Origin: Fibrobacter succinogenes
GTDB lineage: Bacteria; Fibrobacterota; Fibrobacteria; Fibrobacterales; Fibrobacteraceae
DNA: 64,000 bases
Assembly (NCBI GenBank): GCA_902799745.1
Contig: CADCBQ010000002.1
Coordinates: forward strand, 62,001-126,000
Reading direction: 5' to 3'
Position numbers and translations under genes: made by a program. Positions 31,346 through 63,128 of this stretch are shown here, one piece after another (position 1 is the first letter of the stretch; each line of letters opens with the position of its first letter). Under the pieces are notes generated by a model. The model was not told the origin of the DNA, searched no databases, and saw only the letters and a program-made list of their open reading frames with translations.

Positions 31346-31427
31346 TTATACTCTCGACTCGGCAAAATGGGGCTGCCTAAGTCCTTATTTTTTATATTTT
31401 GAATGTACCATTTTAATGAGGGCTTTT

Positions 31428-31826
31428 ATGCTCAAGAAACTGATTGCCATTCTGTTTGCTGCTGCGGTCTTTGCCGTGGCTGACCCCATTGCAATTGAAG
31501 GCCGTCTGACCGAAATCCCGGGCAAGATGCCGAGTAACGACTTGTACAGCTACGTGTACGTGTTCAAGTACAAGGTGCTCAAGGTGGAGTCGGGCAAGCT
31601 CGATGCCAAGGATGTGCTGGTGGGCGTTTACAACCCGCTGATTGCTCGCGGCAAGGTCAAGGACAAAATGGCCGACAAGTCCAAGGGCAACGTGGGCGAA
31701 TTCAAGGCGAAGGCCAAGCATAAGCTCAAGCTCGTTCCGCTCGAAGGTAACTGGGACGGCGCTGTCGAAGATGAATACTTTGACGACGAATCTCCGCGCT
31801 ATTTGGCCATCGAAGTGAACGAGTAG
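31428..31826 (+). CDS. Small secreted protein next to MBOAT gene
   Basis: 132 residues with a signal peptide (MLKKLIAILFAAAVFAVA) and a basic, beta-rich mature part (VYVFKYKVLKVESGKLDAKDVLVGVY). No family recognised. The ATG at 31428 has GAGG 6 nt upstream; an ATG at 31416 is in frame but lacks one. The stop is 3 nt before the MBOAT GTG start, which suggests a paired function, perhaps as a periplasmic accessory to the acyltransferase (inference). Confidence 0.7.
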   Translation: MLKKLIAILFAAAVFAVADPIAIEGRLTEIPGKMPSNDLYSYVYVFKYKVLKVESGKLDAKDVLVGVYNPLIARGKVKDKMADKSKGNVGEFKAKAKHKLKLVPLEGNWDGAVEDEYFDDESPRYLAIEVNE

Positions 31827-31829
31827 TTC

Positions 31830-33248
31830 GTGGTTTTCTCTTCCCAGATTTTCCTTTTCTATTTCTTGCCGACGTTCTTGGTCGGGTACTTTGTGTTGCT
31901 CAAGTTGCACGCAAGGCATTCGACGCTGAACTTTTTCATTACGATTTTTAGCTACCTGTTCTATGGTTGGCTTGAACCGTGGCTTGTATTTTTGATGTTT
32001 AGCTGCACCTTGGTGGTGTATGTGTCCGGGCGCTTTATTTCGGCTCCGGGGGCATCCAAGTTGCAACGGAACTTGGCGCTGGGGGCCGCGGTGGCGGTAA
32101 ACCTGGGCGCGCTCGGCTTTTTCAAGTATTATATGTTTGGCATGGGCATCGTGAACGACGTGGTGACCAAGCTCGGCTGCGAACCGTTCTCAATCATGAC
32201 GGTGCTCTTGCCGGTGGGCATTTCGTTCTATTCGTTCCAGTCCATGAGTTATGCGATTGACGTGTGGCGTGGTACGGCGCCTCCGGTTAAGGATTTTGCG
32301 ACTTTTGCTTGCTATGTGGCGCTGTTCCCGCAGTTGGTGGCGGGCCCGATCGTGCGCTACAATACCGTGGCCGAGGAACTTGCGACCCGTACGCATACGC
32401 TTGATAACTTTGTGCGCGGCATAGCGTTCTTCTGCTTTGGCTTTGCCGAAAAGATATTCCTTGCAAACCAGGTGGGCATTATTGCCGACCGCGTGTTTGC
32501 GGCTGATGCTCCGGGTGTCCTCAACAGCTGGTGGGGCTCGCTTGCGTACATGTTCCAGATTTACTTCGACTTCTCGGCGTATTCGAACATGGCGATCGGT
32601 CTTGGACTCATGCTTGGGTTCCATTTCCCGCGCAACTTCAACGGTCCGTACCGTTCCAAGAGCATTACCGAATTCTGGAAGTTCTGGCATATCTCGCTGA
32701 CGAGCTGGTTCCGCGACTACCTGTATATTCCGCTGGGCGGAAACCGCGTGGGAACGGCGCGCCTGTACTTTAACCTGTTCCTGGTGATGTTTGTGAGCGG
32801 CGTGTGGCACGGTGCGAACTGGACCTTTGTTTGCTGGGGCCTTTACCACGCCTTCTTTATGATTGTGGAACGCGCGAACAATAAGAATGCCTTTTATTAC
32901 AAGGCTCCCAAGTTGGTGCAGGTCCTGATTACGCAGGTAATCGTGCTGTTCGGCTGGGTGCTGTTCCGCGCCGATAGCATTGGCGAAGCCTGGCGCATGT
33001 GGAAGTGCATGCTCGGTTTGAATGCGATCAGCTCTGCCGATGCGATTCTTTCGGCTGAAATCTTTACGCCGACTTGCTTGTTCTTTATGGCGCTTGCGGC
33101 TCTGCTTTCGTTCTGGAAGTTCCGCAGTTTCGATTTCTGCAACAACGTTTCGCCCGTGCGCGTGGCGTTGGCCTTGGTCATTTTTGTGGTTGCGGTACTA
33201 GCTTTGTTTACACAGAGTTACAATCCGTTTTTGTATTTCCAATTCTAG
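31830..33248 (+). CDS. AlgI-type MBOAT O-acyltransferase
   Basis: 472 residues and about ten membrane segments. Diagnostic blocks are LLPVGISFYSFQSMSYAIDVWRG, FPQLVAGPIVRY, DFSAYSNMAIGLGLMLGF and the catalytic VSGVWHGANWTFVCWGLYH with the conserved His. AlgI/PatA-like MBOATs pass acyl groups across the membrane to a periplasmic SGNH partner that acylates a polysaccharide or peptidoglycan. It starts at GTG 31830. No SGNH gene adjoins it; the nearest AlgX-like gene is at 40754. Confidence 0.92.
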   Translation: MVFSSQIFLFYFLPTFLVGYFVLLKLHARHSTLNFFITIFSYLFYGWLEPWLVFLMFSCTLVVYVSGRFISAPGASKLQRNLALGAAVAVNLGALGFFKYYMFGMGIVNDVVTKLGCEPFSIMTVLLPVGISFYSFQSMSYAIDVWRGTAPPVKDFATFACYVALFPQLVAGPIVRYNTVAEELATRTHTLDNFVRGIAFFCFGFAEKIFLANQVGIIADRVFAADAPGVLNSWWGSLAYMFQIYFDFSAYSNMAIGLGLMLGFHFPRNFNGPYRSKSITEFWKFWHISLTSWFRDYLYIPLGGNRVGTARLYFNLFLVMFVSGVWHGANWTFVCWGLYHAFFMIVERANNKNAFYYKAPKLVQVLITQVIVLFGWVLFRADSIGEAWRMWKCMLGLNAISSADAILSAEIFTPTCLFFMALAALLSFWKFRSFDFCNNVSPVRVALALVIFVVAVLALFTQSYNPFLYFQF

Positions 33249-40753: not shown

Positions 40754-42730
40754 ATGAAATTGGAATCCCGCTCTAAAAAATTTTCATTGACTCAGATTTC
40801 TTTGGCGATGCTTTCGTCGTCGCTCTTGGTGGCAGCTCTTTCTTCTTGCGCCTCGAATAAACCGGATGCAAATACGTCCGCGACCGAGAACGTGTCTGCG
40901 GAGCGCCCGGCGGTACTTCCGCCTCAGCCTTCGACGCCGGTGACCGTGTTCGAGATGAAAATCATCGGTGCTGATAAGCAGGTGCGAGTGGTCAACAAGC
41001 CGACACTTGCTGCGCTTGATTTTGCGGCGTATTTCAATAACCCGATTCGCTTGGCAGGTAAAGAAGAAAAACCTGAAAACTATACGGGCAAAATGGCGTC
41101 GGCAAAGCTTGCTGAATATCCGTTCCCGATGCTTGATTCCCTTTCGGAATATGAACCTGCCGCTGTTGCAGGTCGCCAGCCATTGGCTTGGGAACCGCTT
41201 GCGAAGATTCTATACGCACAGACCGGAAACGATTCCCTTTCGCAGATGTTGAATTCTGTTGAAGCGGTCAAATGGAATGAACCCGATGTGTTCAGAGCCT
41301 TCCAGACGGTGAGCCGCATGTGGGGCGTTCCCTTGAGCGATGGTTCTGTGGACTGGTGGGTTGAAGTGATGCCTGCGCCGTGGACGGGCCGCTCCGTATT
41401 TTACGGAAAGCTGAAGTTGAGCTCTACGGGTGAAACCGCTGAAATCTTGAATTACTACTTGACTGGCGAAATGAATATTGACGATGCCATGAACTGGGCT
41501 CGCACTTTGTCGTCTTATTGGTATCCGACTTTGAATACGGACTTGGAACCGCATACGGCGGGAGCTCCGTGGGAAGGCGATGCCAATAGACCGTTTGCCG
41601 TAATGCGCGGAAATCCGATGGGAACCCCGATGTGGATTGCCTTTGAAGTTCCTGCGTTCCGTATGAATGACGAGGCCTTGCGCGCCAAGCGTACAGCGGA
41701 TTCCTTGGCGGAAGCGGGTGAGGTGGTTCCGGTGAACCGTACGCTTGATACAAGTTCCGCTTTTAGACTCGAAACGCTTGCTTCGCTCGAAGGTACGTGC
41801 CCTGTGAATGCGAATACGAAAAAATTCCGCGATGCTCTTTCGAAAAAATTGAAGAAGCTTCCGAAGGAACAGAACGCTTGGGCTGGTGGCGACATGCTTT
41901 GGTTTAGGCGCAATGCCAACTACCTGCTTGCCGATAAAATAACCAAGCAAGATTCCTTGCACAATCCGCTTCCGCGCTTGCTGGAACTCAAGAAGTATCT
42001 GGATTCCTTGAATGTGCAGCTCTTGGTGGTGCCGGTTCCGGTGAAAGAAGAAATTTACGGCGAACGCCTGGTCGAAGGCACTGCTGCCGACCTTTGCGTG
42101 AATCCGGCCGGTCGCGAATTTACTCGCGAAATGCTTGCCGCTGGGCTCGACGTGCTTGATCTTTACCCGGCCCTGATGGCTGCCAAATCGGGCGATGAAC
42201 CTCCGCATTACAGCTACCAACGCTACGATACGCACTGGTCCTTGCCTGGCATGCTTGCTGCCATGGAACTCTTGGCTAGCCGCGTGACTCAGTATTCTTG
42301 GTACGCCGAATCGGGTGCTCAGCCTGGTTCGCTTAATCTGCAAGAAACACAAACGGTGCGTGAAGGCGATCTCGTGGCGCATTTGCCCGATGCCGAAAAG
42401 TCCAAATATGCAGCAGATACTTTGCCTGCAATGAAAATCTTTAAGGGTACCGAAGCTTACAAGGGCGGCAAGAATTCGCCGATTCTCTTGATGGGCGACT
42501 CCTTTACGGGTGTATTTGAATCCGTTGATCAAAAGAGCGGAGGTCCGGGCTCGCTTCTTGCTTATGCGACAGGGCTTGACGTGCAGGTGCTTACTAGCTG
42601 GGGCGGCGGCCCGGGCGTGTACCACCGCATGATGAAAATGAAGAAGGATATGCAGAGCAAGCGTCTCGTGATTTACATGATGACGGCTCGCGACTTCTGG
42701 CAGTCTCCGATGGAATGGGATGGTTTATAG
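40754..42730 (+). CDS. AlgX/AlgJ-like SGNH-domain lipoprotein
   Basis: 658 residues with a lipoprotein signal (LSSC, Cys32). Residues 50-330 form an N-terminal domain without a recognised family. From about 370 the SGNH-like acetyltransferase domain of the AlgX/AlgJ type appears: DMLWFRRNANYLLADK, YQRYDTHWSLPGMLAAMELLA (the DxH pair, about 490) and ILLMGDSFTGVF (GDS serine, about 580). AlgX-type proteins receive acyl groups from an AlgI-like MBOAT and acetylate exopolysaccharide. First gene of the 40.7-53.2 kb run; an MBOAT is encoded 8 kb upstream. The target polymer is unknown. Confidence 0.82.
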   Translation: MKLESRSKKFSLTQISLAMLSSSLLVAALSSCASNKPDANTSATENVSAERPAVLPPQPSTPVTVFEMKIIGADKQVRVVNKPTLAALDFAAYFNNPIRLAGKEEKPENYTGKMASAKLAEYPFPMLDSLSEYEPAAVAGRQPLAWEPLAKILYAQTGNDSLSQMLNSVEAVKWNEPDVFRAFQTVSRMWGVPLSDGSVDWWVEVMPAPWTGRSVFYGKLKLSSTGETAEILNYYLTGEMNIDDAMNWARTLSSYWYPTLNTDLEPHTAGAPWEGDANRPFAVMRGNPMGTPMWIAFEVPAFRMNDEALRAKRTADSLAEAGEVVPVNRTLDTSSAFRLETLASLEGTCPVNANTKKFRDALSKKLKKLPKEQNAWAGGDMLWFRRNANYLLADKITKQDSLHNPLPRLLELKKYLDSLNVQLLVVPVPVKEEIYGERLVEGTAADLCVNPAGREFTREMLAAGLDVLDLYPALMAAKSGDEPPHYSYQRYDTHWSLPGMLAAMELLASRVTQYSWYAESGAQPGSLNLQETQTVREGDLVAHLPDAEKSKYAADTLPAMKIFKGTEAYKGGKNSPILLMGDSFTGVFESVDQKSGGPGSLLAYATGLDVQVLTSWGGGPGVYHRMMKMKKDMQSKRLVIYMMTARDFWQSPMEWDGL

Positions 42731-42808
42731 ACGAAAGACGAGAGAGGATATATTATAAAATGAAAAGTATTTTATTTCTCTCGTCTCTCATCTCTCGTCT
42801 CTCGTCTA
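42728..42808 (+). promoter_or_regulatory. Imperfect hairpin enclosing a ribosome-binding site and start codon
   Basis: TAGACGAAAGACGAGAGA (42728-42745) pairs with TCTCTCGTCTCTCGTCTA (42791-42808), 17 of 18 positions. The loop contains the end of AGAGAGGA and the ATG at 42760; the left arm starts with the TAG stop of the AlgX-like gene. Confidence 0.6.
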
Positions 42809-43524
42809 GGTTCTTTTGGCCGGTGCTTATCATCGTTTTCTCGGCGTCGTTAGCGCTGGTGCTTTGGAGCGGGCGTGCCGAAACCATGGGCTTTCGCGAT
42901 GCGGCGTGTTCTTTTGAAGACCGCATGCCGGGATGCCTCGATTCGCTTGAACTTTGGAATAGCGGACTTGCTTATTTCGATAGTTCGCTTGCGGCCACGC
43001 ACGATACTTTGTGGAGCTTGAAAAGTCTGCTTTGGACATATTGGGGATTTGAATTTGCGGGCGCAGGCGATGCCGCCGTTTCCGCCGAAGCGATTCTTCC
43101 GTTGCATGTGTTGCAAATGAAAAAGTCCGGCTGCATGGGTCTTTCTTGGCTTGCGATGATGGTGGCCGAAGAACGTAACTTGCCGCTTTCGGTTATCATG
43201 CTTCCGGGACATGTGTTCCTGCGCTATGGCATGGATTCCTCGACGGCAATCAATTTAGAACCAAACCGTGAAGGCTATAGCTATACCGATGCCGAGTACC
43301 GCGAAAAGTACAAGGCCGGCCCCTGGACTGGGCTTGAATTTAAACCGCTTACGCCATCGCAGTTTGTGGGACTTGCCGCCTTTAACATGGGAAATTTGTA
43401 TCTGGATAGCGATTTGCGCCGGGCACTCACCTGGTACCGCATGGCCGAAGAGTTTTTTGCGGAATATCCGGGCATCAAGGCGAACCAAGAGATTGCCAAA
43501 AGCCGCTTGCCTGACCACTTGTAG
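42760..43524 (+). CDS. Membrane-anchored transglutaminase-like (SirB1-type) protein
   Basis: 254 residues. One N-terminal membrane segment (about 18-40) is followed by a transglutaminase-like core: SGCMGLSWLAMMVAEERNLP with the candidate catalytic Cys and VIMLPGHVFLRYG with the His. The C-terminal third has a TPR-like helix pair (AAFNMGNLYLDSDLRRALTWYRMAEEFF). The SirB1/Tgl-core2 group often works with tetratricopeptide repeats; activity is not established. It begins 29 nt after the AlgX-like stop; part of its signal anchor (SLISRLSSR) is encoded by the GAGACGA microrepeat. Confidence 0.7.
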   Translation: MKSILFLSSLISRLSSRFFWPVLIIVFSASLALVLWSGRAETMGFRDAACSFEDRMPGCLDSLELWNSGLAYFDSSLAATHDTLWSLKSLLWTYWGFEFAGAGDAAVSAEAILPLHVLQMKKSGCMGLSWLAMMVAEERNLPLSVIMLPGHVFLRYGMDSSTAINLEPNREGYSYTDAEYREKYKAGPWTGLEFKPLTPSQFVGLAAFNMGNLYLDSDLRRALTWYRMAEEFFAEYPGIKANQEIAKSRLPDHL

Positions 43525-43559: not shown

Positions 43560-46304
43560 ATGCGTGTTGCCTTACTGTTTTTTGTATCGCTGATTTTTTA
43601 TGCGTGTTCCTATGAAGGTGGATCTTCAGGGGAAATCGTTGTTGATTTTTCGGAAGATGAATTGGACTGCATGGTGCGAGTTGTTGCTCGAAATGCAAAC
43701 GCTTTGCTCGGTACAAATGATCCTCAGGCTAAGACTGAAGAATACCCGCAAATGAGAGTCAAAATTGACTATTCGTTTTCGATGGGACAGCACGAAGTCA
43801 CTTGTGGCGAGTTTAATAAGTTGATGAAATCTCAGGGCTTGACGCTCTCTTGCGAGAACAAGGACCTCCCTGCAACGGATTTGACCTATTACGATGCGGT
43901 GCTGTTTGCCAATGAAATGAGCAAGGCGAACAAATTTGACACGGTATATACTTTTACGAGCAAGCAAGTCGATAGCGATGGACATTGTACATTCCTTGAA
44001 GGTTTCAATTTTCACCCTGATGTAGAGGGTTTCCGCTTGCCGACCGAAGCGGAATGGGTCTTGGTTGCAGGTCGTAACTGGAATCCCGCGGCCGCCTGGA
44101 ATGCTGAAAATTCGAACATGAAACTTCATGAGGTGTGCTCGCGCAGGGATTCTACCCGTTTTTGTGATTTGGCGGGAAATGCCATGGAATGGGTTAACGA
44201 CTGGCTCGGCTTCTTTAGGGATACCACCATCTATAATTATGCTGGCTCCCCGGATGGGGGTAACCTGGGACGGAGAATCCTTAAAGGTGGTTGCTACCGT
44301 CAGCAGGCTTCTGCAATGCAGTTGTATAGCAGAACCGATGTTTATACTGTTACATCTTCGACTCGTGCCGAATATGTCGGATTCCGTTTGGCGTTCGGAT
44401 CGATTCCCGATGCCGTATGGATGAGTTACGATGGGCAGGTGAATTCCTCGCGTGTAATTGCTTTGGTGAATCAGCGTACCCTAAAGTCCATTTTTGGAAC
44501 CTATAAAGCGATACTTGCTTTTAGAAACAACCTCAATGGTCACATGGGTTATTTCAATTTCTCAAACGGCTCCATTTATACGGTAGACTTTCCGGATGTC
44601 TATGAGGATTTCCACCCTGAAATTTCTCCGAATGGGCGTTATATTGCGTATTGTTCGGGATTGGAAGGCGTGTCCGGTACGTCGACTATTTACGTAAGAA
44701 GGATTGAGCTGGGTGTAAATGGAATAGTAGGATTGAATGTTGAATCGGCGGCGATTCCACGGTGGCGCGTCTTGCCGAATGGCGATACAGTTATAGTGTA
44801 TGTAACCGATGCTGGCAACAATAAGAACGATGGTTCGTTTAAATCGGCCTCGACATGGCAAGTGACGTTCCAAAAGGGTCGATTCGGTAAGCCTAAAAAA
44901 CTATTTGACGGGGCGTATCACGACGGCATAAGCCCAGATGAAAAGTTGACTGTGAGCGGCGCGCGTCTGCTCCGTGCAAGAATAGCCGATTCGTCATCTA
45001 CGGTATCGTCTAGTGCCCGCGATACGGTTTGGTTCAATGGTGAACAGGCTTGCAACGCCTCCCTTTCGATGGACGGCACCAAGAAAACCCTGTTCCTTGA
45101 TTTTGGCAGCAAGACAGGGCGTGATTTTGTAGGGGAATCCTATGGAGTGCATGAACGCCTTTTGGTCATGGATAGTACGGGTAAGTTGATCCGTTCCGTT
45201 AAGGCCCCGGCGGGGTATTCGTTCGACCACAGCGAATGGGTGCGTGGACGTTCGGATTATGCGGTGGCGACGCTTGCCGATGCAAATGGCATGCACAATA
45301 AAATTGTTCTTGTGAATTTCTTGGACAGCAGCATTACGGATTTGGCTGAAGGCGACGATCTTTGGCAACCGAATCTTTGGCTTCCTGATGCTTATGACAA
45401 GTCTACTTTGGAAGTCGATGAAGATAGCGCCGGCGTGTACATGCATGTAGGCGATAATCTTGAAGGCCTTTTGATGCGCTATAATATGGAAGTCTTGTGG
45501 AAATACCGCGATACCGCCAATGTGGTCGTACTAGGTTCTTCTCGTCCGATGCTTGGCGTGTCCCCGAAGTATTTTAGTCCGAAATTCTTTGTCATTAACC
45601 TTGCGCAAACGCCTAATTCCATATACATGTCGAGGGATTATTTGGATACTTATATCTTCCCGCATGTAAAACGCTTGAAGTACATTATTCTGTCTTTAGA
45701 TCTCGATTTGTGGTACAAGAGCGAAGAAGAGAGTTTCTTTGTGAATGGCTATGAACAGTACGCCGGTTATGTCTATGACAAAAACCACGATTATTGGAAA
45801 GACGGTTATCCGAACGGGCTTTTGGAATGTACGGAGAACTACATTTCGGTAGATGGAGAATCGTTCTTCTTGGATGATCGTGGTCGTTATTTAAGTTCGG
45901 AATGCAAGTCTTGGGGCGACCGTGCTGATATTGCGATGGATTCCATGTTCTTTGACAAACATCCTGAGGCATTGGAAAATTCTATCGCGGCATTAAAGGA
46001 AATTCTCAAAAAGGCCGAAGAAAGAGAAATTTACGTTATCGGTGTGATTTTCCCGCTGAATCCGAATTATAAAAAGACGGGCGCATTTGGCCGTTACGGC
46101 ATGCGTCGAAGCCTGGCTCAAAAGGTTATTGAAGATTTGAAGGGTTTTGAAGACGAGTATCCTCATTTTAGACTTTATGACCAGAACCTGATGGGGGATC
46201 ATACTTATGATGACGATACCGCTTCGGATTCAGACCATCTTTGTTCCAAAGGTGCCTCCAAGATTTCGACTCGAATCAACGAGTTCATGAAACAATTAAG
46301 GTAA
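43560..46304 (+). CDS. TIGR02171-like lipoprotein 1: FGE-like + propeller + SGNH-like domains
   Basis: 914 residues. Lipobox IFYAC (Cys15). Residues 45-285 are an FGE/SUMF1-like domain (MGQHEVTCGEFNKLM, RLPTEAEWV, NAMEWVNDWL, ILKGGCYR, VGFRLAFG) without the Cys pair of true formylglycine enzymes. Residues 300-640 are a beta-propeller (FHPEISPNGRYIAYCSGLEG, SFDHSEW, DLAEGDDLW). Residues 645-914 look like an SGNH hydrolase: VVVLGSSRPM (Ser near 659) and DSDHLCSKGA (Asp-His near 891). Resembles Fibrobacter paralogous family TIGR02171, of unknown function. ATG 43560 is used; a TTG lies 6 nt upstream. Confidence 0.85.
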   Translation: MRVALLFFVSLIFYACSYEGGSSGEIVVDFSEDELDCMVRVVARNANALLGTNDPQAKTEEYPQMRVKIDYSFSMGQHEVTCGEFNKLMKSQGLTLSCENKDLPATDLTYYDAVLFANEMSKANKFDTVYTFTSKQVDSDGHCTFLEGFNFHPDVEGFRLPTEAEWVLVAGRNWNPAAAWNAENSNMKLHEVCSRRDSTRFCDLAGNAMEWVNDWLGFFRDTTIYNYAGSPDGGNLGRRILKGGCYRQQASAMQLYSRTDVYTVTSSTRAEYVGFRLAFGSIPDAVWMSYDGQVNSSRVIALVNQRTLKSIFGTYKAILAFRNNLNGHMGYFNFSNGSIYTVDFPDVYEDFHPEISPNGRYIAYCSGLEGVSGTSTIYVRRIELGVNGIVGLNVESAAIPRWRVLPNGDTVIVYVTDAGNNKNDGSFKSASTWQVTFQKGRFGKPKKLFDGAYHDGISPDEKLTVSGARLLRARIADSSSTVSSSARDTVWFNGEQACNASLSMDGTKKTLFLDFGSKTGRDFVGESYGVHERLLVMDSTGKLIRSVKAPAGYSFDHSEWVRGRSDYAVATLADANGMHNKIVLVNFLDSSITDLAEGDDLWQPNLWLPDAYDKSTLEVDEDSAGVYMHVGDNLEGLLMRYNMEVLWKYRDTANVVVLGSSRPMLGVSPKYFSPKFFVINLAQTPNSIYMSRDYLDTYIFPHVKRLKYIILSLDLDLWYKSEEESFFVNGYEQYAGYVYDKNHDYWKDGYPNGLLECTENYISVDGESFFLDDRGRYLSSECKSWGDRADIAMDSMFFDKHPEALENSIAALKEILKKAEEREIYVIGVIFPLNPNYKKTGAFGRYGMRRSLAQKVIEDLKGFEDEYPHFRLYDQNLMGDHTYDDDTASDSDHLCSKGASKISTRINEFMKQLR

Positions 46305-46307
46305 ATG

Positions 46308-49043
46308 ATGAATAGGGTGCTTTTTCTGTTGCTGCTGGGCGCGCTTTTGGCGGCTTGCTCCAATTCTGAAAGTGTTTATTCACATGAGGCTTCGGAGCCC
46401 GTTCTTGTATTCGATTCGCTGAAAGAGATGATTTCTATACAGCTCGAAAAGAAAGAGCTTGTACTTGGAACGAACGAAGAATTGGCGAAGGCGAATGAAC
46501 GCCCTCAAATGAAGGTTTCGCTGGATTACGATTTCTCGATCGGTAAGCACGAAATTACCTGCGGTGAATACAATTCGCTGATGGGGGCCGCCGAGATGAT
46601 CTTGAAATGCGAAAACAAGAAGTTCCCGGCGACGAACCTGACTTATTACGATGCGGTCCTGTTTGCAAATGCCCGCAGCAAGGCTGAAGGCTTGGATACG
46701 GCTTACAGTTATACAATCGCCGTTTTTGATGTTGAAAAACATTGCACGAATTTGGAAGGCTTTGCCTACCACCCGGAAGTAAATGCATATCGATTGCCGA
46801 CGGAAGCGGAATGGGTGTATGTTGCGGGCCTCAATTGGAATCTAGATTCAAGTTGGACAGCCGACAATTCGGAATATAAGTTGCATGAGGTCTGCTTGCT
46901 TACATCCGCAGAAACTGATGTATGCGATATGGCCGGAAATGCGATGGAATGGGTCAACGACTGGCTGGGAGCTTTTCGCGATACCACTGTATCGAATTTC
47001 GTGGGTGCTCCTGATGGAGGTGCGCTCGGGCAGCGTGTCGTGAAGGGTGGAAGCTTCCGTAACGAGGCGCACACCATTACGTCTTATTCCCGTGGAGATG
47101 TTTACACGGTGACATCTTCGACAAAGGCTGATTATGTCGGCTTTCGTTTGGCTTTCGGCGCAATTCCTGCTGCAACCTGGATGAACTCTAATGGAAATGC
47201 GATGACGAGCCGAATTGTCCCGTTGGCAAAATCGTCAACAATCCGTTCGCAGACTGGAACTTTCCGCTCGAAACTGGTATTCCGCAACGACTTGACGGGA
47301 AACCTTGCCTTTGTCGATTATTCAAACAGCATCTTGTCGATTGTCGAAATTGCGGATACGATAGATGCGTATCATCCGGAAATTTCGCCTGATGGCAAGA
47401 AGGTTGCCTTTTGTACGGGGCTTGAAGGAGTGTCGGGAAAATCGTCGCTTTATGTTCGCGACTTGAATGCCGATGGTTCTAATCTCGTTAAGCTAGATGT
47501 TGAATCTGCGGCGATTCCACGTTGGCGAATTTTGCCGGATGGTGATACGGTGATTGTCTATGTGACTGACGCCGGCAATAATAAAAATGAAACCTCGTTT
47601 AAGGCAACATCTACCTGGCAGGTGAAGTTTGCAAACGGCAAGTTCGGTAAGCCGCAAAAACTTTATGATGGCGCTTACCATGGAGGTATCAGCGAAGATA
47701 ATTCCCTGGCGGTCACGGGAGCAAGGCTTTTGCGCACTCGCATGGGGAATGAAGATTCTGTGTGGTATGAAGGCGAACAGGCCTGCAATGTGTCTTTAGC
47801 CAAGGATAGCAGCAAGCGAACATTGTTCCTTGATTTTGGCGGACGCACGGGGCGTGATTATGTCGGCGAAAATTATGGTACGCACGAACGCCTTTTGCTT
47901 GCCGATAGCACCGGAACATTAATCGGCTCGGTTGCTGCTCCGGCAGGCTATGCTTTTGACCACAGCGAATGGGTGTCCGGTGAAAAAGACCTTGCCGTAG
48001 CAACCTTGACGAATGCTGGCGGAGCTCATGTCAAAATCGTCATGGTGAATGTTGCTACGGGCGAGATGATTGATCTTGCTGAAGGGGATGAACTTTGGCA
48101 CCCGAATCTATGGGTCTTGCAAAATAGCGCTTTGAAAAATGTTTCACTTGATGTAGATAGTGCCGGCGTTTATCTGGATGAAAATTTTGATGTAGGTGCA
48201 ACCATATTGCGCTACAAGATAGAACTTGTATGGACCTATAGGGACTGGGCGAATGTGGTGGTTCTTGGATCTTCGCGTCCCCAGTCGGGAATTATCCCTG
48301 CAAAAATGCGCGAAAAGTTCAAGACAATCAATGTCACAAATGTTCCGAACATGGTTGCTTCATCGGAATTCATTGCCCGTAATTACGTGTTCCCGCATGT
48401 GAAGAACTTGAAGTATCTTATTGTGTCGCTGGACATCGATTTGTGGCATAAAGATGAACAGAGTGAATACAATTTCTTCTACTTGGACTATAAAAAATAT
48501 CCTGGATACATCTATGATGAAAATCATGATTTCTGGAAAAATGGTTACCCTGAAGGTTTGGCTGAACTCACCCAGAATACGCTGGGACAGGAATACAATG
48601 AAAAATTGATGCGCTCAACATTGGGTTATGTTCCGGGAGACCCTGCCAATTGGGAAGAAAATCCTGGAGTCGAATTTGACAGTACCTGGATGGATTATCT
48701 TCCGGATCATTTTGAGGCCTCGTTGGAACACCTGGAAAATATTCTCAAGATGGCCGAAAACTACAATGTTTCAGTGATTGGAATCGTTTTCCCGCAGAGC
48801 CCGAATTTTAAGAAGACTGGGTCTTTCGGCCGTTATGGAGTTCGCCGAAGCGAAGCCCCGAAACTATTGAAGCGAATCCAGGATCTAGAACAGGTTTATC
48901 CGAATTTCACATTCTGGGATGAAAATAAAATGGGTGACCACGACTACAGTGATCCGATGGCTAACAACAAGGATCACTTGAGTGACTTGGGGGCTCAACA
49001 GTTGACGGAACGTTTAAACTTATTGCTAGAAAGTATGGAGTAA
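46308..49043 (+). CDS. TIGR02171-like lipoprotein 2: FGE-like + propeller + SGNH-like domains
   Basis: 911 residues, clearly paralogous to the genes on both sides. Lipobox LLAAC (Cys17). FGE-like block: IGKHEITCGEYNSLM, RLPTEAEWVYVAGLNW, NAMEWVNDWLG, VVKGGSFRN. Propeller block: YHPEISPDGKKVAFCTGLEGVSGKS, AFDHSEW, DLAEGDELWHPNLW. SGNH-like block: VVVLGSSRPQSG (Ser near 655), KMGDHDYS and KDHLSDLGAQ at the C-terminus. The ATG at 46308 has AAGG 6 nt upstream; the ATG at 46305 immediately follows the previous stop. A copy-number expansion by tandem duplication is likely. Confidence 0.85.
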   Translation: MNRVLFLLLLGALLAACSNSESVYSHEASEPVLVFDSLKEMISIQLEKKELVLGTNEELAKANERPQMKVSLDYDFSIGKHEITCGEYNSLMGAAEMILKCENKKFPATNLTYYDAVLFANARSKAEGLDTAYSYTIAVFDVEKHCTNLEGFAYHPEVNAYRLPTEAEWVYVAGLNWNLDSSWTADNSEYKLHEVCLLTSAETDVCDMAGNAMEWVNDWLGAFRDTTVSNFVGAPDGGALGQRVVKGGSFRNEAHTITSYSRGDVYTVTSSTKADYVGFRLAFGAIPAATWMNSNGNAMTSRIVPLAKSSTIRSQTGTFRSKLVFRNDLTGNLAFVDYSNSILSIVEIADTIDAYHPEISPDGKKVAFCTGLEGVSGKSSLYVRDLNADGSNLVKLDVESAAIPRWRILPDGDTVIVYVTDAGNNKNETSFKATSTWQVKFANGKFGKPQKLYDGAYHGGISEDNSLAVTGARLLRTRMGNEDSVWYEGEQACNVSLAKDSSKRTLFLDFGGRTGRDYVGENYGTHERLLLADSTGTLIGSVAAPAGYAFDHSEWVSGEKDLAVATLTNAGGAHVKIVMVNVATGEMIDLAEGDELWHPNLWVLQNSALKNVSLDVDSAGVYLDENFDVGATILRYKIELVWTYRDWANVVVLGSSRPQSGIIPAKMREKFKTINVTNVPNMVASSEFIARNYVFPHVKNLKYLIVSLDIDLWHKDEQSEYNFFYLDYKKYPGYIYDENHDFWKNGYPEGLAELTQNTLGQEYNEKLMRSTLGYVPGDPANWEENPGVEFDSTWMDYLPDHFEASLEHLENILKMAENYNVSVIGIVFPQSPNFKKTGSFGRYGVRRSEAPKLLKRIQDLEQVYPNFTFWDENKMGDHDYSDPMANNKDHLSDLGAQQLTERLNLLLESME

Positions 49044-49046
49044 AAA

Positions 49047-51779
49047 ATGAACCGATTCCTGCTAGGCATAGTATTTCTTTGCATCGGATTCTTTGAAGTT
49101 TCCTGTTCTAATTCGACCAATGCGACTTCTGAAAATGTCGCCGAATTCAGCTTTGATGCTGTTTCGGGAATGATTCAGGTAAAGGCAAAAAAAGGCTATG
49201 CTTTGCTGGGAACGAACGAGCCTACGGCCAAGACAAATGAACGCCCCGTAATGCGGGTGGACTTTAGTTACGATTTCGCGATTGGCAAGCACGAAGTGAC
49301 TTGTGGTGAATTCAACGAACTCATGAAGCCTTTGACGGGGCTTGTCTTGACCTGCGAAAACGATAGCTTGCCGGCATCGGATTTGACTTATTATGATGCG
49401 GTCCTGTATGCAAATGCCCGCAGCAAGGCAGAACATCTTGATACCGCCTATACTTATGTCAAGGTAATCTTCGATGCAGAAAAACATTGCACGAATTTAG
49501 AGGGCTTTGCTTTTCATCCTGATGTAGAGGCGTATCGATTGCCGACCGAAGCGGAATGGGTATATGTCGCCTCCCGTAGCTGGAACGTCAAAAATGGATG
49601 GCTAGCTGAAAATTCGGATTATCTGTCCCATAATGTGTGTTTTTTTGAAACTCCAGAAAATGTCCCCTGCGATATGGTGGGCAATGTGATGGAATGGATG
49701 AACGATTGGCTGGGCTATTTCCGTGATACTGCGGTTGTGAACTATGTGGGTGCTCCCGATGGCGATGCGCTTGGTCAGCGCGTTGTGAAGGGTGGAAGTT
49801 TCCGCAATGCCGAAAAATCAATTACGCAGTACGCTCGTGGTGATGTATATACGGTGACATCTTCAACAAGAGCGAATTATGTGGGATTTCGCCTTGCGTT
49901 GGGAGCGGTTCCCGATGCAACTTGGCTGAATGCAAGTGGCAAAGCGGTGGCTAGCCGTGTCATTTCTTTGGCGGGAGCTTCTACGATCCGTTCCTTGACG
50001 GGGACTTATCGCGCTAAACTTGTTTTCCGCAACGATATCACCGGAAACCTCGCTTTTGTAGACTTTTCTGGTGGAACGAATTCGGTCGTCGAAATCGAAG
50101 ATTCCCTTGAAGCTTACCACCCCGAAATTTCTCCTAACGGCAAGAAGGTGGCTTTCTGCACAAAATTTGAAGGTGTTGCGGGCAAGTCGGAACTATATGT
50201 GCGCGATTTGAATGTCGCTGGATCAAATCTTGTTAAGCTGGATGTCGAATCTGCTGCGATTCCGCGTTGGCATGTTCTTGAAAACGGGGATACGGTGATT
50301 GTCTATGTGACTGATGCCGGAAACAACAAGGATGAATCTGCCTTTAAGCAGGCTTCAACTTGGCAGGTGAAGTTTGCGAACAATAAATTCGGAAAGCCCG
50401 AAAAATTGTTCGACGGGGCGTTCCATGGAGGCATTAGTGAAGACAATACCCTTGCTGTGACGGGGGCTAGGCTTTTGCGTGCTCGCGTTGACGGCGAAAA
50501 TGAACTTTGGTATGGTGGCGAACAGGCTTGCAATGCTTCTTTGGCGAAAGATAGTAGCAAACGTACCTTGTTCCTCGACTTTGGCGGAAAAACAGGTCAT
50601 GAATTTGTCGGCGAAAATTATGGTACGCATGAACGCCTCTTGGTTGCCGATGCTCAAGGCCGCTTGATTCAGTCGGTGGCTGCACCATCGGGGTATTCTT
50701 TCGACCATAGCGAATGGGCGGCGAACAAAAACTTGGTGGTGGCAACGCTTACAAATGTAAATGGTGCGCACCAGAAAATTGTCCTTGTGAATATGACCGA
50801 TAGTTCCGTGACGGATTTGACGGAAGGTGAAGAACTGTGGCATCCGTATTTGTGGGTGAATGCCGGAGCCTCTTCCGGTGCCGATGATTTGCTGGATCTA
50901 GATAGTGCGGGTGTTTACCTGTCCGAAGTCCACCAGTTGGAACAGATTCGTTTTAGAATCAAGATGGAAAAGTTCTGGAAGAACCTTGAAACGACAGAAG
51001 TGATTCTCGTTGGAAGTTCCCGCATGGAAATGGGTACAGATCCGGATCTTTTCCCGGAATGGAATATGCTGAATTTTGGCGTGACCGGAATCGACCCGAA
51101 CCGCAATTACTATTTCATCTATAATTACATATTGAACCATTCGGAACATTTAAAGGCGATTGCTGTTTCGATTGACTTGGATTATTGGCGTGGCCTCGAA
51201 AATCATTTGGGCCTTGTCCTTATGTCGGGTGTCGGCTATGAATACGATGCCAATCATTCGTTCTGGAAAGACGGTGTTCCGGCGGGTTTTGTAGAAGCGG
51301 TTGAAAATGCTTACCCCGCAGCTCCTGAAGAAACGGTTCATTTCTCTGCTCGCGGCGGAATGATGGTTCCTATCCGTTCTTGGGATGCCGATGGTGTCGA
51401 CGTATTGCACGATTCTGCTTTTACGGATCTCGAAATGCAATACTTGGACAAGAACTTGGCGGAGTTGAAGAATTTGACAGAACAAGCGGCGGAAAAGAAC
51501 ATTTATATTATCGGAATTATTTTCCCGCAGGCACCTCAGTATAAAAATTCAGGCGCGTTCGGTGCGTATGGAATGCCGCGCAGCGTTGCGGTTCAGAAGA
51601 TTGCTTATCTTGATTCTTTGGCGAAGTCGAATTCGCATTTTATTCTCATGGATGAAAATAAGATGGGTGACCATGACTACTCGGATGAAATGGCTCACAA
51701 TCGTGACCACTTGAGTTTCTTGGGTGCCCAGAAATTGACGGCTCGGATTGATTCTGTGCTACGTACCTTGAAATGGTAA
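49047..51779 (+). CDS. TIGR02171-like lipoprotein 3: FGE-like + propeller + SGNH-like domains
   Basis: 910 residues with a lipobox-like FEVSC (Cys20). The FGE-like and propeller domains are close to lipoprotein 2 (VVKGGSFRN, YHPEISPNGKKVAFCTKFEG, SFDHSEW, DLTEGEELWHPYLW). The last third diverges more: the SGNH-like Ser block reads VILVGSSRMEMG and the following segment (LFPEWNMLNFGVTGIDPNRNYY) differs from its paralogues, though RDHLSFLGAQ is kept. Such divergence in one domain suggests altered substrate specificity. The stop overlaps the next start by 7 nt. Confidence 0.85.
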   Translation: MNRFLLGIVFLCIGFFEVSCSNSTNATSENVAEFSFDAVSGMIQVKAKKGYALLGTNEPTAKTNERPVMRVDFSYDFAIGKHEVTCGEFNELMKPLTGLVLTCENDSLPASDLTYYDAVLYANARSKAEHLDTAYTYVKVIFDAEKHCTNLEGFAFHPDVEAYRLPTEAEWVYVASRSWNVKNGWLAENSDYLSHNVCFFETPENVPCDMVGNVMEWMNDWLGYFRDTAVVNYVGAPDGDALGQRVVKGGSFRNAEKSITQYARGDVYTVTSSTRANYVGFRLALGAVPDATWLNASGKAVASRVISLAGASTIRSLTGTYRAKLVFRNDITGNLAFVDFSGGTNSVVEIEDSLEAYHPEISPNGKKVAFCTKFEGVAGKSELYVRDLNVAGSNLVKLDVESAAIPRWHVLENGDTVIVYVTDAGNNKDESAFKQASTWQVKFANNKFGKPEKLFDGAFHGGISEDNTLAVTGARLLRARVDGENELWYGGEQACNASLAKDSSKRTLFLDFGGKTGHEFVGENYGTHERLLVADAQGRLIQSVAAPSGYSFDHSEWAANKNLVVATLTNVNGAHQKIVLVNMTDSSVTDLTEGEELWHPYLWVNAGASSGADDLLDLDSAGVYLSEVHQLEQIRFRIKMEKFWKNLETTEVILVGSSRMEMGTDPDLFPEWNMLNFGVTGIDPNRNYYFIYNYILNHSEHLKAIAVSIDLDYWRGLENHLGLVLMSGVGYEYDANHSFWKDGVPAGFVEAVENAYPAAPEETVHFSARGGMMVPIRSWDADGVDVLHDSAFTDLEMQYLDKNLAELKNLTEQAAEKNIYIIGIIFPQAPQYKNSGAFGAYGMPRSVAVQKIAYLDSLAKSNSHFILMDENKMGDHDYSDEMAHNRDHLSFLGAQKLTARIDSVLRTLKW

Positions 51780-53194
51780 TTGCTTTTTTTGTCATCCTGT
51801 TCGCGATTTTCCCGCTGACCGATACGGATATTTGGTGGCATTTGGCGTGTGCTCGCGAGTGGGTGACTACATGGACACCTGTCCGCATGCCCATTGTGAA
51901 TGTACATGAGTACTTTCAACTGGTTGTAGGCTTTGTTTACGGTTTGGGTGGTGCACCTCTCTTGGTGGCCATCAAGGCGGTGTTGTGGGGAATCGTCTTT
52001 TGGCTGTTCCTTCGTCGTTCAGGGTCAGCATCCCTAGCTAAATGGGTGCTTTGCCTAGTATTCCTCTTCCTATTCCGCTACCAGTTTGAAATGCGTCCGG
52101 TGCTTTTTTCGCTGTTGTTCCTTGGCGTTTACTGGAATGCGATTCCGTGGCTAGCCAAGGAATGGTATGAATCTCGGTTCGGTGTGAAACGGGTTGCGTA
52201 CGCAGCGTTGATTCTTGTCGTTCAGTGGCTTTGGTGCAAGTGCCAGGGGCTTTATGTCTTGGGCCCCATTTTTGCGACATTAGTATTGTGCGCCTGTTTG
52301 CTTGAATCTAAAAAGCAGGGCAGACTCTGCGCAAAATTCGTAGTTCCGCAAGTTGCTTTTGTATTGCTTCTTTGGACAATGCCGTTTTTGCATCGCGAGG
52401 GCTTGGCGTTGTTCCTGTATCCGTTTGGACTGCTGGACCGCTTGCTTGGCCTTACTCAATCTGCAGCGATATTTGCAAGTGAAATTGCCGAAAACCGTTC
52501 TCCTGTAACACTTTTGATGGCGGGGGAGAACTGGATTGTTTCGGTGATAATGATTGTGCTGAGTCTTGTTGGAATGGTACTTGCTGGCTTGAATTGCCGT
52601 TCTGTAAAGTCTTTGTGGATGCTTGCCATGGCGATTCTCGCGCTTGTTGCCGAACGCAACTTTGTGTTGTTCTTGCCCGTACTTTTGGGAATGTTGCCAA
52701 TTTCCTCAAAGCAACCGAAGGTTGCGACCTCATCCCTCATCCCTCACATCTCGCTTCCTACTGTCTACTGCCTACTTCCAACTTTGTTTATTCTCGGTCT
52801 CTGGGTTCGTTCGCTTTTCGCTTATGACTCCATGGTTGCTTACCAGCGTGTGCCTGTGCAAGCCTCAGAATGGATGGCGGAACATTCCCATTCGGGTAAG
52901 CTGTTTAACGATGACCGCGCCGGTGGTTACTTGGCGTTAATGAATCCTGCGGACTCCATTTATATCGATGGCAGGTTCATCCTCAAGACTGCAGATTTCT
53001 TTGAACGGTATCTGAATTACGCTGAAGATCCCGCTCTGTTTATGCATGATGCCGATTCTTTAGGCATTGACCGTGCCCTATTCCCGCTGCGGTATTACGC
53101 CCGCTGGGATAAACTGATGCTTGCCCTTGATCGGGATTCTCGCTGGCACTTGGCCTACCGCGACGAATACTTCGCCGTATTCGATAAATATTAA
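51773..53194 (+). CDS. Polytopic membrane protein, GT-C glycosyltransferase-like
   Basis: 473 residues with about ten hydrophobic helices and a C-terminal soluble domain of about 100 residues (FNDDRAGGYLALMNPADSIYIDGRF). FPLTDTDIWWHLACAREW right after the first helix resembles the first-loop Asp motif of GT-C lipid-dependent glycosyltransferases. No exact family is certain. It overlaps lipoprotein 3 by 7 nt and closes the six-gene run. Residues about 320-338 (LIPHISLPTVYCLLPT) are encoded by a pyrimidine-rich microrepeat. Confidence 0.65.
   Translation: MVIAFFVILFAIFPLTDTDIWWHLACAREWVTTWTPVRMPIVNVHEYFQLVVGFVYGLGGAPLLVAIKAVLWGIVFWLFLRRSGSASLAKWVLCLVFLFLFRYQFEMRPVLFSLLFLGVYWNAIPWLAKEWYESRFGVKRVAYAALILVVQWLWCKCQGLYVLGPIFATLVLCACLLESKKQGRLCAKFVVPQVAFVLLLWTMPFLHREGLALFLYPFGLLDRLLGLTQSAAIFASEIAENRSPVTLLMAGENWIVSVIMIVLSLVGMVLAGLNCRSVKSLWMLAMAILALVAERNFVLFLPVLLGMLPISSKQPKVATSSLIPHISLPTVYCLLPTLFILGLWVRSLFAYDSMVAYQRVPVQASEWMAEHSHSGKLFNDDRAGGYLALMNPADSIYIDGRFILKTADFFERYLNYAEDPALFMHDADSLGIDRALFPLRYYARWDKLMLALDRDSRWHLAYRDEYFAVFDKY
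52728..52783. repeat. Pyrimidine microrepeat inside membrane-protein gene
   Basis: CATCCCTCATCCCTCACATC is followed by CTACTGTCTACTGCCTACTTCC: short imperfect tandem units on a strict pyrimidine-biased strand, in frame within the CDS. Confidence 0.55.
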
Positions 53195-53279: not shown

Positions 53280-54677
53280 TTACTTGATCTGGAAGGCGCG
53301 AACCATGTTGGTTGCGTTTCCATGAATTCGTGCAAAGTACTTGCCGGCAGGGAGCTTGGCGAGCGAAAGCGTACCGCTTACATTGTCAATCGCCATCAAC
53401 TTGTTGCCCATAGTGGTGAAAATTTCAACCGTCATCGGTGCGCCAGCAATGTGCAGGGCGTTGTCCAAGAAACTCACATTGAAGTTCACGCTTGCCTTTG
53501 CGAAAATCGGAACTTCGTTGCCGTTCTGGCCATTGTTGTTTTCGTTGTTATTTTCGCCGTTGTTGCCACCCTGGTTTTCGTTGCCGTTGTTTCCGCTGTT
53601 GGCTGCGCACTTGGTGTAGCTAGTGGGGTTGGTGGCAAGGTAGCCCTTAACGAGGTTACCCGAAGTGGTATACTGAAGCGAAGTCTTGGTTGAAGAACCG
53701 TCAAATGCGGCGGTACCTTCGCTAATCTTGGAGGCGGACCAGTTTGCCCAAGAAAGCTGATGCTTGTTGATATATTCCTGCCAGCTCTGGTTACGGCCCT
53801 GATCCGGGTTTCCGCCGCCGCTAGCATCTGCAGTGCCCCATTCCGAAACGAATACGGAAAGACCTGCGTTAATGGCTTCTTCGCCGTTGGTGCCTTCGCA
53901 AGTTCCGCCCCAGTCATACTGACCACTCCAGCAGTGGCTATTAGCGTAGTAGTGCAATGTGTAGGCGGTATTCTTTTTCGGGTCGTTGACTTCGTTGCCG
54001 ATGGCCGCTTGCGGGTTCTGGTCCCACTTGGGGGTGCCCACAAGAACCAGGTTGTCGGAGTATTCGCGAATCACCGAAACCACTTGGTCTGCGTAGGTCT
54101 TGATGGTGCCCCAGGCAATATCAGTGGGTTCATTGAACAATTCAAAGATCACATGGTCGTATTGACCATAGGTCTGCGCCATTTGCTTAAAGAAGTTCTT
54201 GGACGCTTCGGTCTGTTCGTTTGCGTTGTGAGAATGCCAGTCGATGATCACGTAAATGTCGTTCTTGATGGCCGCTTCGACAACGGTTTTCATCAAGCCC
54301 AATTGAGTGTTGGGGTCGCTGCCGTAGCCCTGGTAGCCATTGCTCCAGTCTTCGTTACCGGTGGCCATGGCGGCACGCACAATCTGGATGTTCATATCGC
54401 GAACCATGGTGGAAATGGCTTCTTCACTCCAGAATTCGACAGCTTGCGGCATCAAACTCCAGTAAAGGCTCATTCCACGCACCTGCACTTCGGCGCCGTC
54501 CTTTACACCTTCGCAGCTGCCGTAAATACGGCCCTTGCCTTGTGAGTTCTTGCCGGTCATCAGTTGACCGTATTGGCTAACAGGACCCACGCGGGTGGGG
54601 GTAATCTCTTGGGCTGAGGCGAAAGTAGCACTCAATGCCAATGCCGACAAAAGTGCGATTTTTGAGAATTTTTTCAT
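53280..54677 (-). CDS. Secreted GH5 endoglucanase with C-terminal sorting domain
   Basis: 465 residues. A signal peptide (MKKFSKIALLSALALSATFASA) precedes the GH5 catalytic domain (about 30-350), with acid/base Glu183 in FELFNEPTD and nucleophile Glu279 in FVSEWGTAD; WHSH and the HYYANSH region fit subfamily GH5_2 cellulases. A linker of Asn/Gly (NNGNENQGGNNGENNNENNN, about 363-387) leads to a C-terminal beta domain (VEIFTTMGNKL ... LSLAKLPAGKYFARIHG ... VRAFQIK) like a type IX secretion type A sorting signal. It cuts cellulose or beta-glucan outside the cell. ATG at 54677 has GGGA upstream; the ATG at 54686 has none. Confidence 0.93.
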   Translation of the reverse strand: MKKFSKIALLSALALSATFASAQEITPTRVGPVSQYGQLMTGKNSQGKGRIYGSCEGVKDGAEVQVRGMSLYWSLMPQAVEFWSEEAISTMVRDMNIQIVRAAMATGNEDWSNGYQGYGSDPNTQLGLMKTVVEAAIKNDIYVIIDWHSHNANEQTEASKNFFKQMAQTYGQYDHVIFELFNEPTDIAWGTIKTYADQVVSVIREYSDNLVLVGTPKWDQNPQAAIGNEVNDPKKNTAYTLHYYANSHCWSGQYDWGGTCEGTNGEEAINAGLSVFVSEWGTADASGGGNPDQGRNQSWQEYINKHQLSWANWSASKISEGTAAFDGSSTKTSLQYTTSGNLVKGYLATNPTSYTKCAANSGNNGNENQGGNNGENNNENNNGQNGNEVPIFAKASVNFNVSFLDNALHIAGAPMTVEIFTTMGNKLMAIDNVSGTLSLAKLPAGKYFARIHGNATNMVRAFQIK

Positions 54678-54724
54678 TATAAACATCCCTTTTTTTTATG
54701 AAAATAGGTTTTAAACGCGGAAAA

Positions 54725-54758: not shown

Positions 54759-54846
54759 GTGTAATATGTGAGCGAGGTCAATTTTTTGAGGCCAAATGTG
54801 CCATTTTTTCACGGTTTTTGGGGCGGAAATTACTAGATTGCGAGGT

Positions 54847-56052
54847 ATGAAGAATGTGATGAAGTTTGCTATTCCGGCCTTATTGGCTTTTTCGACTGTT
54901 TTTGCCCAGCAGGGTGCTCCGACGGGTGCCGCTGTTGATCCGACAGCTGACGAACAGAAGGCTCTTTCTGCCCTCAAGGGTAAGCTCGAAGGTGCGATTG
55001 TATGGGCCACGAGCCGTGCGAATAGCCATCACGACATTTGGATTATGAATGCCGACGGTACGAATGCCCGTGCCCTTACGCAAGGTGACAACGTGGACTG
55101 GTTCCCGCGCATTTCGCCAGATGGTTCGACGGTGCTCTTTAACCGCAGCAAGGGTGGCTGGGTGCCTGAAAACGATGCCAACTACCCTGAAAAGTGGGAC
55201 TTGTGGATGGTCGATATCTCGGGCGAAAACGCTCGCAAGGTTGTGGACAACGCCACTTGGGGCACCTGGAGACCCGACGGCAAGTCGATTGTATTTAGCC
55301 GCGCCGGCAAGGTGTTTACGATGGACCTCGCCAGCAAAAAAGAAACTCTTGTGCTCGATGGCGAAAAGGCCTTCAACAAGTCCGGCGTAATTCTGCAAGA
55401 ACCGAACATGAGCCCCGATGGCAAGCACTTGGCCATTACGCTCCGCGGTTCCATGCGTGAAACGGGCGTGTGGGATCTCTCGAAGAATGCCTGGACCAAG
55501 TCCGGCGACGGTTGCCAGATTGACTGGAACTTTGATGGTTCCAAGCTTTACCGAGTGAACCCGACAGGTAACGGTGGTACGGCTGCTCCGAGTGAAATCC
55601 TCTGGTTCAGCGCCAAGGACGGCAAACAGGTTGAAAAGGTGGGCTTCTTTGGCATTCCGAAGAATGTGAAGCTGATGGATTTGCCTGGCCGCCGCAGCCA
55701 TGAATATTTCCCGCGTCTCTCTCCCGATGGTAAGTGGCTCGTGTGGGGTGCAACCGACAAGGGTCACGATCACGACTTGTTCGACTACGAACTGTACATT
55801 TGGAAGATTGGCGAACCGGTTGAATCGGCAACGCGTATTACTTACCACAGCGGTAATGACCGCTGGCCGGACATTTGGCTCGGCAAGGTTCCTGTAAAGG
55901 AAACGGTGACGGACAAGGTCGCTTCTCAAGTGAAGGACGCCGTCAACGGTGCTGCAAATGCAATTCAGTCGGGCATTAGCGAAGCCAAGATGGACGAACT
56001 CATCAAGGCCATCGATCGCTTGACCGAAGCGGTGAAGTCGCTGGCTAAGTAG
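54847..56052 (+). CDS. Secreted TolB-like beta-propeller protein
   Basis: 401 residues with a signal peptide (MKNVMKFAIPALLAFSTVFA). The body has repeated propeller blades with PDG turns: DIWIMNADGTNARALTQGDN, FPRISPDGSTVLFNRSKGG, WGTWRPDGKSIVFSRAGK, MSPDGKHLAIT, FPRLSPDGKWLVWGATDKG. A C-terminal helix of about 55 residues (VKETVTDKVASQVKDAVNG...) may be a coiled coil. Function unknown; similar propellers form the middle domain of the TIGR02171-like lipoproteins nearby. Several Met codons are clustered at the start, so the exact start is uncertain. Overlaps the convergent SpoU gene by 8 bp. Confidence 0.8.
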   Translation: MKNVMKFAIPALLAFSTVFAQQGAPTGAAVDPTADEQKALSALKGKLEGAIVWATSRANSHHDIWIMNADGTNARALTQGDNVDWFPRISPDGSTVLFNRSKGGWVPENDANYPEKWDLWMVDISGENARKVVDNATWGTWRPDGKSIVFSRAGKVFTMDLASKKETLVLDGEKAFNKSGVILQEPNMSPDGKHLAITLRGSMRETGVWDLSKNAWTKSGDGCQIDWNFDGSKLYRVNPTGNGGTAAPSEILWFSAKDGKQVEKVGFFGIPKNVKLMDLPGRRSHEYFPRLSPDGKWLVWGATDKGHDHDLFDYELYIWKIGEPVESATRITYHSGNDRWPDIWLGKVPVKETVTDKVASQVKDAVNGAANAIQSGISEAKMDELIKAIDRLTEAVKSLAK

Positions 56053-63081: not shown

Positions 63082-63128
63082 CTCCAAATTCCGCTAAATA
63101 AAGCCGTTTTTGGCACTTTGTAAATCTT

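Follow-up and report, generated by a model that had tools for sequence, protein, structure and literature searches.

Tandem TIGR02171 lipoproteins of Fibrobacter succinogenes carry a DltD-like SGNH domain and may act as O-acyltransferases with an MBOAT-AlgX gene cluster

The window, a stretch of 64,000 nucleotides of the genome of Fibrobacter succinogenes, contains four genes for large proteins of the family TIGR02171. This is a large multi-copy family in a major fibre-degrading phylum, and no function is assigned to it in its entry (Fb_sc_TIGR02171, Fibrobacter paralogous lipoprotein family). In the open-access literature that was searched, no paper on TIGR02171 or on a three-domain protein of this kind was found. 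The four genes and the neighbours discussed below are as follows.

31413-31826, plus strand: small exported-looking open reading frame, immediately 5' of the MBOAT gene, a position conserved in the phylum
31830-33248, plus strand: MBOAT O-acyltransferase (PF03062, E 4.6e-26) that ends in FLYFQF, orthologue of the MBOAT of the ancestral cluster
40754-42730, plus strand: AlgX-type SGNH lipoprotein (PF16822, E 2.8e-19), with D-T-H-W and then G-D-S-F; first gene of the likely operon
42715-43524, plus strand: transglutaminase-like protein (PF13369, E 1.2e-8), with a 16-base overlap with the upstream gene
43560-46304, plus strand: TIGR02171 lipoprotein 1, 914 aa, with lipobox Cys, FGE-like, propeller and SGNH parts; Ser codon 45540-45542, His codon 46236-46238
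46305-49043, plus strand: TIGR02171 lipoprotein 2, 912 aa, the copy modelled; SGNH residues about 613-912 (from 48141), Ser657 codon 48273-48275, His891 codon 48975-48977
49047-51779, plus strand: TIGR02171 lipoprotein 3, 910 aa; Ser codon 51018-51020, His codon 51708-51710
51773-53194, plus strand: TM473, a polytopic membrane protein of 473 aa without a Pfam match, with a 7-base overlap with lipoprotein 3; conserved along with the cluster throughout the phylum
53280-54686: glycoside-hydrolase-like protein
54796-56052, plus strand: TolB/PD40-type propeller protein, which in relatives belongs to the same cluster
56840-59548, plus strand: TIGR02171 lipoprotein 4, 902 aa, whose block I reads G-N-S-H; Ser codon 58772-58774, His codon 59474-59476

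Judged by profile scores, the membership of all four window copies in TIGR02171 is certain, given full-length scores of 1163, 1274, 1257 and 1050 bits for copies 1 to 4 and a curated cut-off of 544.35. A sequence-only reading of this DNA had described a trio of consecutive paralogues of about 910 residues at 43560-51779. The three back-to-back genes are there, and all belong to TIGR02171, but "trio" understates the family, given the fourth copy in the window and a total of six full copies in the genome, the other two on other contigs. The same reading had pointed to two conserved blocks, and both were found in copies 1, 2 and 3, with G-S-S-R at residues 659, 655 and 656 and D-H-L at residues 892, 890 and 887, respectively; in copy 4, G-N-S-H replaces G-S-S-R. 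Copies 2 and 3 are 51-52% identical to copy 1, which starts with the ATG at 43560, although a TTG 6 bases upstream is likewise open. The window copies are predicted to be lipoproteins, with a lipobox Cys in LLAAC, FYAC, EVSC and LMAC, and the Cys column is 96% conserved.

The intervals between successive genes, from the AlgX-type lipoprotein through the transglutaminase-like protein and the three tandem copies to TM473, are -16, 35, 0, 3 and -7 bases, and therefore these genes likely form one operon. The AlgX-type protein has both the PF16822 match and the H-S-G-N circular order; circular permutation is a feature of the AlgX family (PMC9487903). The neighbours in the operon each recur in about 20 of 78 TIGR02171 loci, when flanks are restricted to 5 kb. 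No Pfam family matches TM473, even when 11 relatives are included, except for TPRs in some of them. Its residues D19, W22, H45, Q49, R102 and R108 are invariant, and these and a C-terminal IDGR motif are conserved across the phylum. From its D-x-D-I-W-W-H motif, TM473 is possibly a glycosyltransferase of the GT-C type.

The N-terminal domain of the TIGR02171 proteins is FGE-like, which is certain from Pfam and from the fold of the model: FGE-sulfatase PF03781 matches copies 1-3 with E 9e-22 to 3e-26, and Foldseek returns the FGE-type folds 2y3c, 1y1h and 5hha. The catalytic Cys pair of FGE is absent, with any Cys at positions 250-265 in just 7 of 113 sequences. An identity as GldK, EgtB or PvdO was rejected, because the matches to these NCBIfam families fall far under their cut-offs and reflect the common FGE-like fold only. 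The central propeller is detected weakly by Pfam (PD40, E 0.002-0.05). In the full-length AlphaFold2 model of copy 2 (pLDDT 92.5, pTM 0.86) the middle part is all-beta, and a Foldseek search with that model matches TolB 4pwz (E 1.8e-9) and kelch propellers. The propeller is the most conserved part of the TIGR02171 proteins, and the SGNH domain is the most divergent.

The C-terminal domain was modelled separately (residues 615-912 of copy 2, AlphaFold2 with 114 homologues), with pLDDT 96.6 and pTM 0.94. Its best solved Foldseek match is DltD 6o93 (E 3.6e-5, prob 1.00), and others include GDSL acylhydrolases, rhamnogalacturonan acetylesterase 1deo (E 8.5e-4), PatB 7tjb and, weakly, PbeAcXE. Target-normalised TM-scores among the DltD, GDSL, 1deo and PatB matches are moderate at 0.37-0.66, as expected when a domain of about 300 residues with large insertions is compared to smaller cores. 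No Pfam family was found in this domain of the window copies, and the domain profile, run against PDB sequences, returned nothing at E<=1, so the link to solved structures is by fold comparison only. The architecture first read from the letters, with a SUMF1/FGE-like N-terminus that lacks the Cys pair, a central propeller and an SGNH-like C-terminus, is thus borne out in each of its parts. A C-terminal fold unrelated to SGNH would have spoken against that reading, and the predicted fold is SGNH.

Across 140 non-redundant domains, G655, S657 and H891 (copy 2 numbering) are invariant, and N676, D712 and D872 are each conserved at 99%. Judging by the G-N-S-H of copy 4, the nucleophile position in G-S-S-R is that of the second Ser. 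In the model, Ser657 lies after the first strand and opens a helix and His891 lies just ahead of the last helix, which is the standard SGNH arrangement. In block V, three positions before the His, 72 of the 140 domains have N and 64 have D; 128 have D one position before the His, and 139 have D at one or the other of the two. The block II Gly is not conserved, given that the column two past N676 is A in 73, G in 38 and S in 27 domains, nor is the block III Asn conserved across the 140; D712 (139 of 140) occupies the end of that strand. SGNH members, including known transferases, also depart at such block sites, and AlgX and others lack the block III Asn (PMC9487903). Because neither the G-S-S-R Ser nor the D-H-L His varies in any of the 140 sequences, the SGNH domain is probably catalytic.

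Pfam DltD (PF04914) was detected in 7 of 114 domain relatives, with a best E of 2.4e-6, and DUF1574 in three. The PF04914 matches in genomes lie over profile positions 253-345, with a few relatives above 22.7 bits and those in the C-terminal third only; in this organism's own genome, window copies included, PF04914 has no match. The domain profile was run on 39 distant genomes from the phylum and on the flanking stretches covered. Besides full-length TIGR02171, it found five weaker single-domain proteins (L173, L174, L178, L179 and L180), in which G-x-S and D-H-L fall on the same profile columns where shown. Three of the five directly follow an MBOAT that ends in FIYFQF, the one in L180 adjoins an AMP-binding enzyme, and the one in L173 has neither MBOAT nor AMP-binding enzyme among the genes tested. 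The L180 protein (L180:784-3961) carries a SEC-C motif, and its setting is reminiscent of DltA-DltD. Single-domain matches to the DltD profile in L175-L177 were rejected as close relatives, as they are ordinary Lipase_GDSL_2 enzymes. A second MBOAT of the genome that holds the window, a 630-aa frame on another contig (C34, L181:5200-7089), also ends in FIYFQF, and two adjoining genes look SGNH-like by eye.

In distant Fibrobacterota the neighbours of the tandem copies form one cluster, in the order small ORF, MBOAT, ALGX1, ALGX2, transglutaminase-like protein, TM473 and TolB-like protein (L190-L198 and L203, some minus a member). TIGR02171 comes after TM473 in another genus (L204 and L208), ahead of the TolB-like gene in L204, and lies just past the end of the cluster in L191. 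In the window the MBOAT gene is 7.5 kb upstream of the operon, and in many Fibrobacter it is on a different contig; an ALGX1 orthologue lies elsewhere in the own genome, at C1:138339. Given that the window retains the small ORF and the MBOAT upstream and the TolB-like gene downstream, the cluster has apparently been spread out here. The FLYFQF tail of the window MBOAT is identical in all cluster orthologues with an intact C-terminus. An FXYXXF tail is a demonstrated acyl shuttle in PatA, where its Tyr is auto-acetylated and feeds PatB, and a reported one in DltX (PMC12148441).

Of 168 genomes from the phylum, 86 contain a TIGR02171 match above the cut-off. The 78 TIGR02171 loci found among GTDB genomes are labelled Fibrobacter or Fibrobacteres-type, except for L067, a short contig in a Bacteroidales MAG that is probably misbinned Fibrobacter DNA. 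With presence defined by E<1e-50 for TIGR02171 and ALGX2, E<1e-100 for the MBOAT and E<=1e-5 for TM473, TIGR02171 and the MBOAT orthologue occur together in 95 of the 168 genomes, one without the other in 5 and 8, and neither in 60; within the own genus the same four counts are 65, 2, 0 and 13. The co-occurrence of TM473 and ALGX2 with TIGR02171 resembles that of the MBOAT, and the 13 Fibrobacter genomes without TIGR02171 are missing MBOAT, ALGX2 and TM473 as well. Fisher values reach down to 1e-30 but ignore shared ancestry and incomplete genomes, and are descriptive only. Exceptions occur both ways: G006, G018 and G166 are among the relatives with the MBOAT-AlgX genes and no full-length TIGR02171, and G066, G133 and G150 have TIGR02171 and are missing this MBOAT. 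Therefore, neither needs the other.

From the relatives and the gene context, we give about an even chance to the proposal that TIGR02171 proteins are the terminal O-acyltransferases of an envelope-glycan acylation system of the Fibrobacterota. The MBOAT at 31830-33248 would take an acyl group from the cytoplasm and attach it to the Tyr in the FLYFQF tail at its C-terminus. The acyl group would then pass to the Ser of the SGNH proteins, namely the AlgX-type proteins and the C-terminal domains of TIGR02171 (Ser657/His891 in copy 2), which would hand it to a glycan acceptor. In TIGR02171 the catalytic domain, DltD/DUF1574-like, would be held on a scaffold of FGE-like and TolB-like propeller domains in a membrane-anchored lipoprotein; the scaffold may provide a binding site for the acceptor or for a partner, and the paralogues, with their divergent SGNH domains, may differ in acceptor or acyl specificity. 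We infer catalysis through an acyl-enzyme, transfer rather than hydrolysis, the acyl type, the acceptor, a physical link between the MBOAT and TIGR02171 proteins, and the membership of the TIGR02171 SGNH domain in the MBOAT/AlgX pathway. The evidence thus offers a specific candidate chemistry, a Ser657/His891 acyl-enzyme, with the FLYFQF tail as candidate donor and MBOAT-AlgX envelope O-acylation as candidate pathway.

Several observations count against transfer by TIGR02171. The ALGX1 orthologue could be the MBOAT's own partner, the MBOAT-AlgX cluster exists without TIGR02171 in some genomes, and the MBOAT is separated from the operon by 7.5 kb here and by contig in many Fibrobacter. An outer-membrane lipoprotein might not reach an inner-membrane MBOAT, and the C-terminal domain of the window copies matches no Pfam family. 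That the MBOAT and AlgX-type proteins make up a complete system without TIGR02171 in some relatives would also suit a modifier, a hydrolase that deacylates the very envelope polymer on which the MBOAT-AlgX system acts and so tunes its decoration. Deacetylases accompany acetyltransferases in other polymers. Such a deacylase would share the gene context and co-occurrence that suggest a transferase, and most GDSL matches in the Foldseek search are hydrolases. However, the nearest sequence relatives are of the DltD/DUF1574 type and mostly lie beside MBOATs, and DltD and PatB are transferases; deacylation is credible but unlikely.

The sequence-only reading had left the choice between surface carbohydrate esterases and acyltransferases. 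Both activities are predictions, and gene context and relatives lead us to favour an envelope-glycan O-acyltransferase over an esterase of plant polysaccharides. Surface acetylesterases acting on plant hemicellulose would fit a group of plant-fibre degraders, the Foldseek matches to 1deo (E 8.5e-4) and, weakly, PbeAcXE, and the glycoside-hydrolase-like protein at 53280-54686. However, relatives of that protein turn up in only 4 of 78 loci, a carbohydrate-binding module was looked for and not found, and the family spans the phylum and travels with the MBOAT/AlgX cluster rather than with glycoside hydrolases, and this role seems slightly less likely still than deacylation. The SGNH domain could also be a non-catalytic binding module, on a protein in which ligand or protein binding falls to the FGE-like and propeller domains, as suggested by the missing Cys pair and by the propeller being the most conserved part. 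Complete conservation of Ser and His in 140 sequences, despite this domain being the most divergent part, makes such a module improbable.

The proposed acyltransferase is built of known kinds of parts. DltD (PF04914; 6o93) is the lipoteichoic acid D-alanyl transferase, and it is the best fold match of the C-terminal domain and a weak Pfam match in 7 of 114 relatives; TIGR02171, in contrast, is a lipoprotein fused to FGE-like and propeller domains, and no DltA/C neighbours were seen in the window. The single-domain Fibrobacterota relatives that follow an MBOAT with FIYFQF match DUF1574, whose proteins have neither an FGE-like nor a propeller part. Neither an activity nor a structure is known for DUF1574 (PMC9487903). 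The likeness to the AlgJ/AlgX system of alginate acetylation lies in the AlgX-family protein with D-x-H and G-D-S in the operon, and in an ancestral cluster of an MBOAT with two AlgX-type SGNH proteins, whereas TIGR02171 has the canonical order, Ser first and His last, and no PF16822 match. As in the peptidoglycan O-acetyltransferase PatA/PatB, an MBOAT with an FXYXXF tail would feed an SGNH transferase, and PatB 7tjb is among the fold matches, but PatB lacks the FGE-like and propeller parts and the MBOAT is not adjacent here. The N-terminal fold (PF03781) is that of the formylglycine-generating enzyme, PvdO and GldK, without the Cys pair. To our knowledge, no characterised MBOAT-SGNH system has this three-domain architecture. 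Neither the putative three-domain enzyme, the MBOAT-AlgX link nor the mode of evolution set out below was found described in the open-access literature searched.

Tandem copies on the same contig are far more alike in the FGE-propeller part, the chassis, than in the SGNH part. For L064, nucleotide identity runs at 0.76-0.98 as far as residue ~601, drops to ~0.5 across the SGNH domain and climbs again in the last ten codons. At third codon positions, the L064 pairs and the top L050 pairs have identities of 0.56-0.76 in the chassis and 0.31-0.42 in the SGNH core. Because the same break appears at third codon positions, protein constraint alone is not a sufficient explanation, and gene conversion or recombination would be the simplest account. 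Among pairs with SGNH identity below 48%, copies from one locus have a chassis identity of 0.64, and copies from different loci one of 0.55. Window copies 2 and 3 show a weaker effect than L064, with 69% identity in the chassis and 37% in the SGNH domain, and their SGNH domains have clear orthologues in L041. A MAG assembly error is possible for single loci, but several contigs agree on the break. L064, L050, L056 and the tandem copies at 43560-51779 have the appearance of concerted chassis evolution with a sharp breakpoint near residue 600. A tentative proposal, which we think more probably wrong than right, is that one MBOAT feeds a set of lipoproteins with a homogenised chassis and anciently diverged SGNH cassettes, which would vary the glycan or position that is acylated, possibly via cassette exchange. 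The pattern suggests that selection maintains diversity in the enzyme part.

Elsewhere in the window, very long open frames run on the minus strand at 218-6664 and 60382-63087, antisense to a 2220-aa ORF and to gyrA, and are probably an effect of codon usage.
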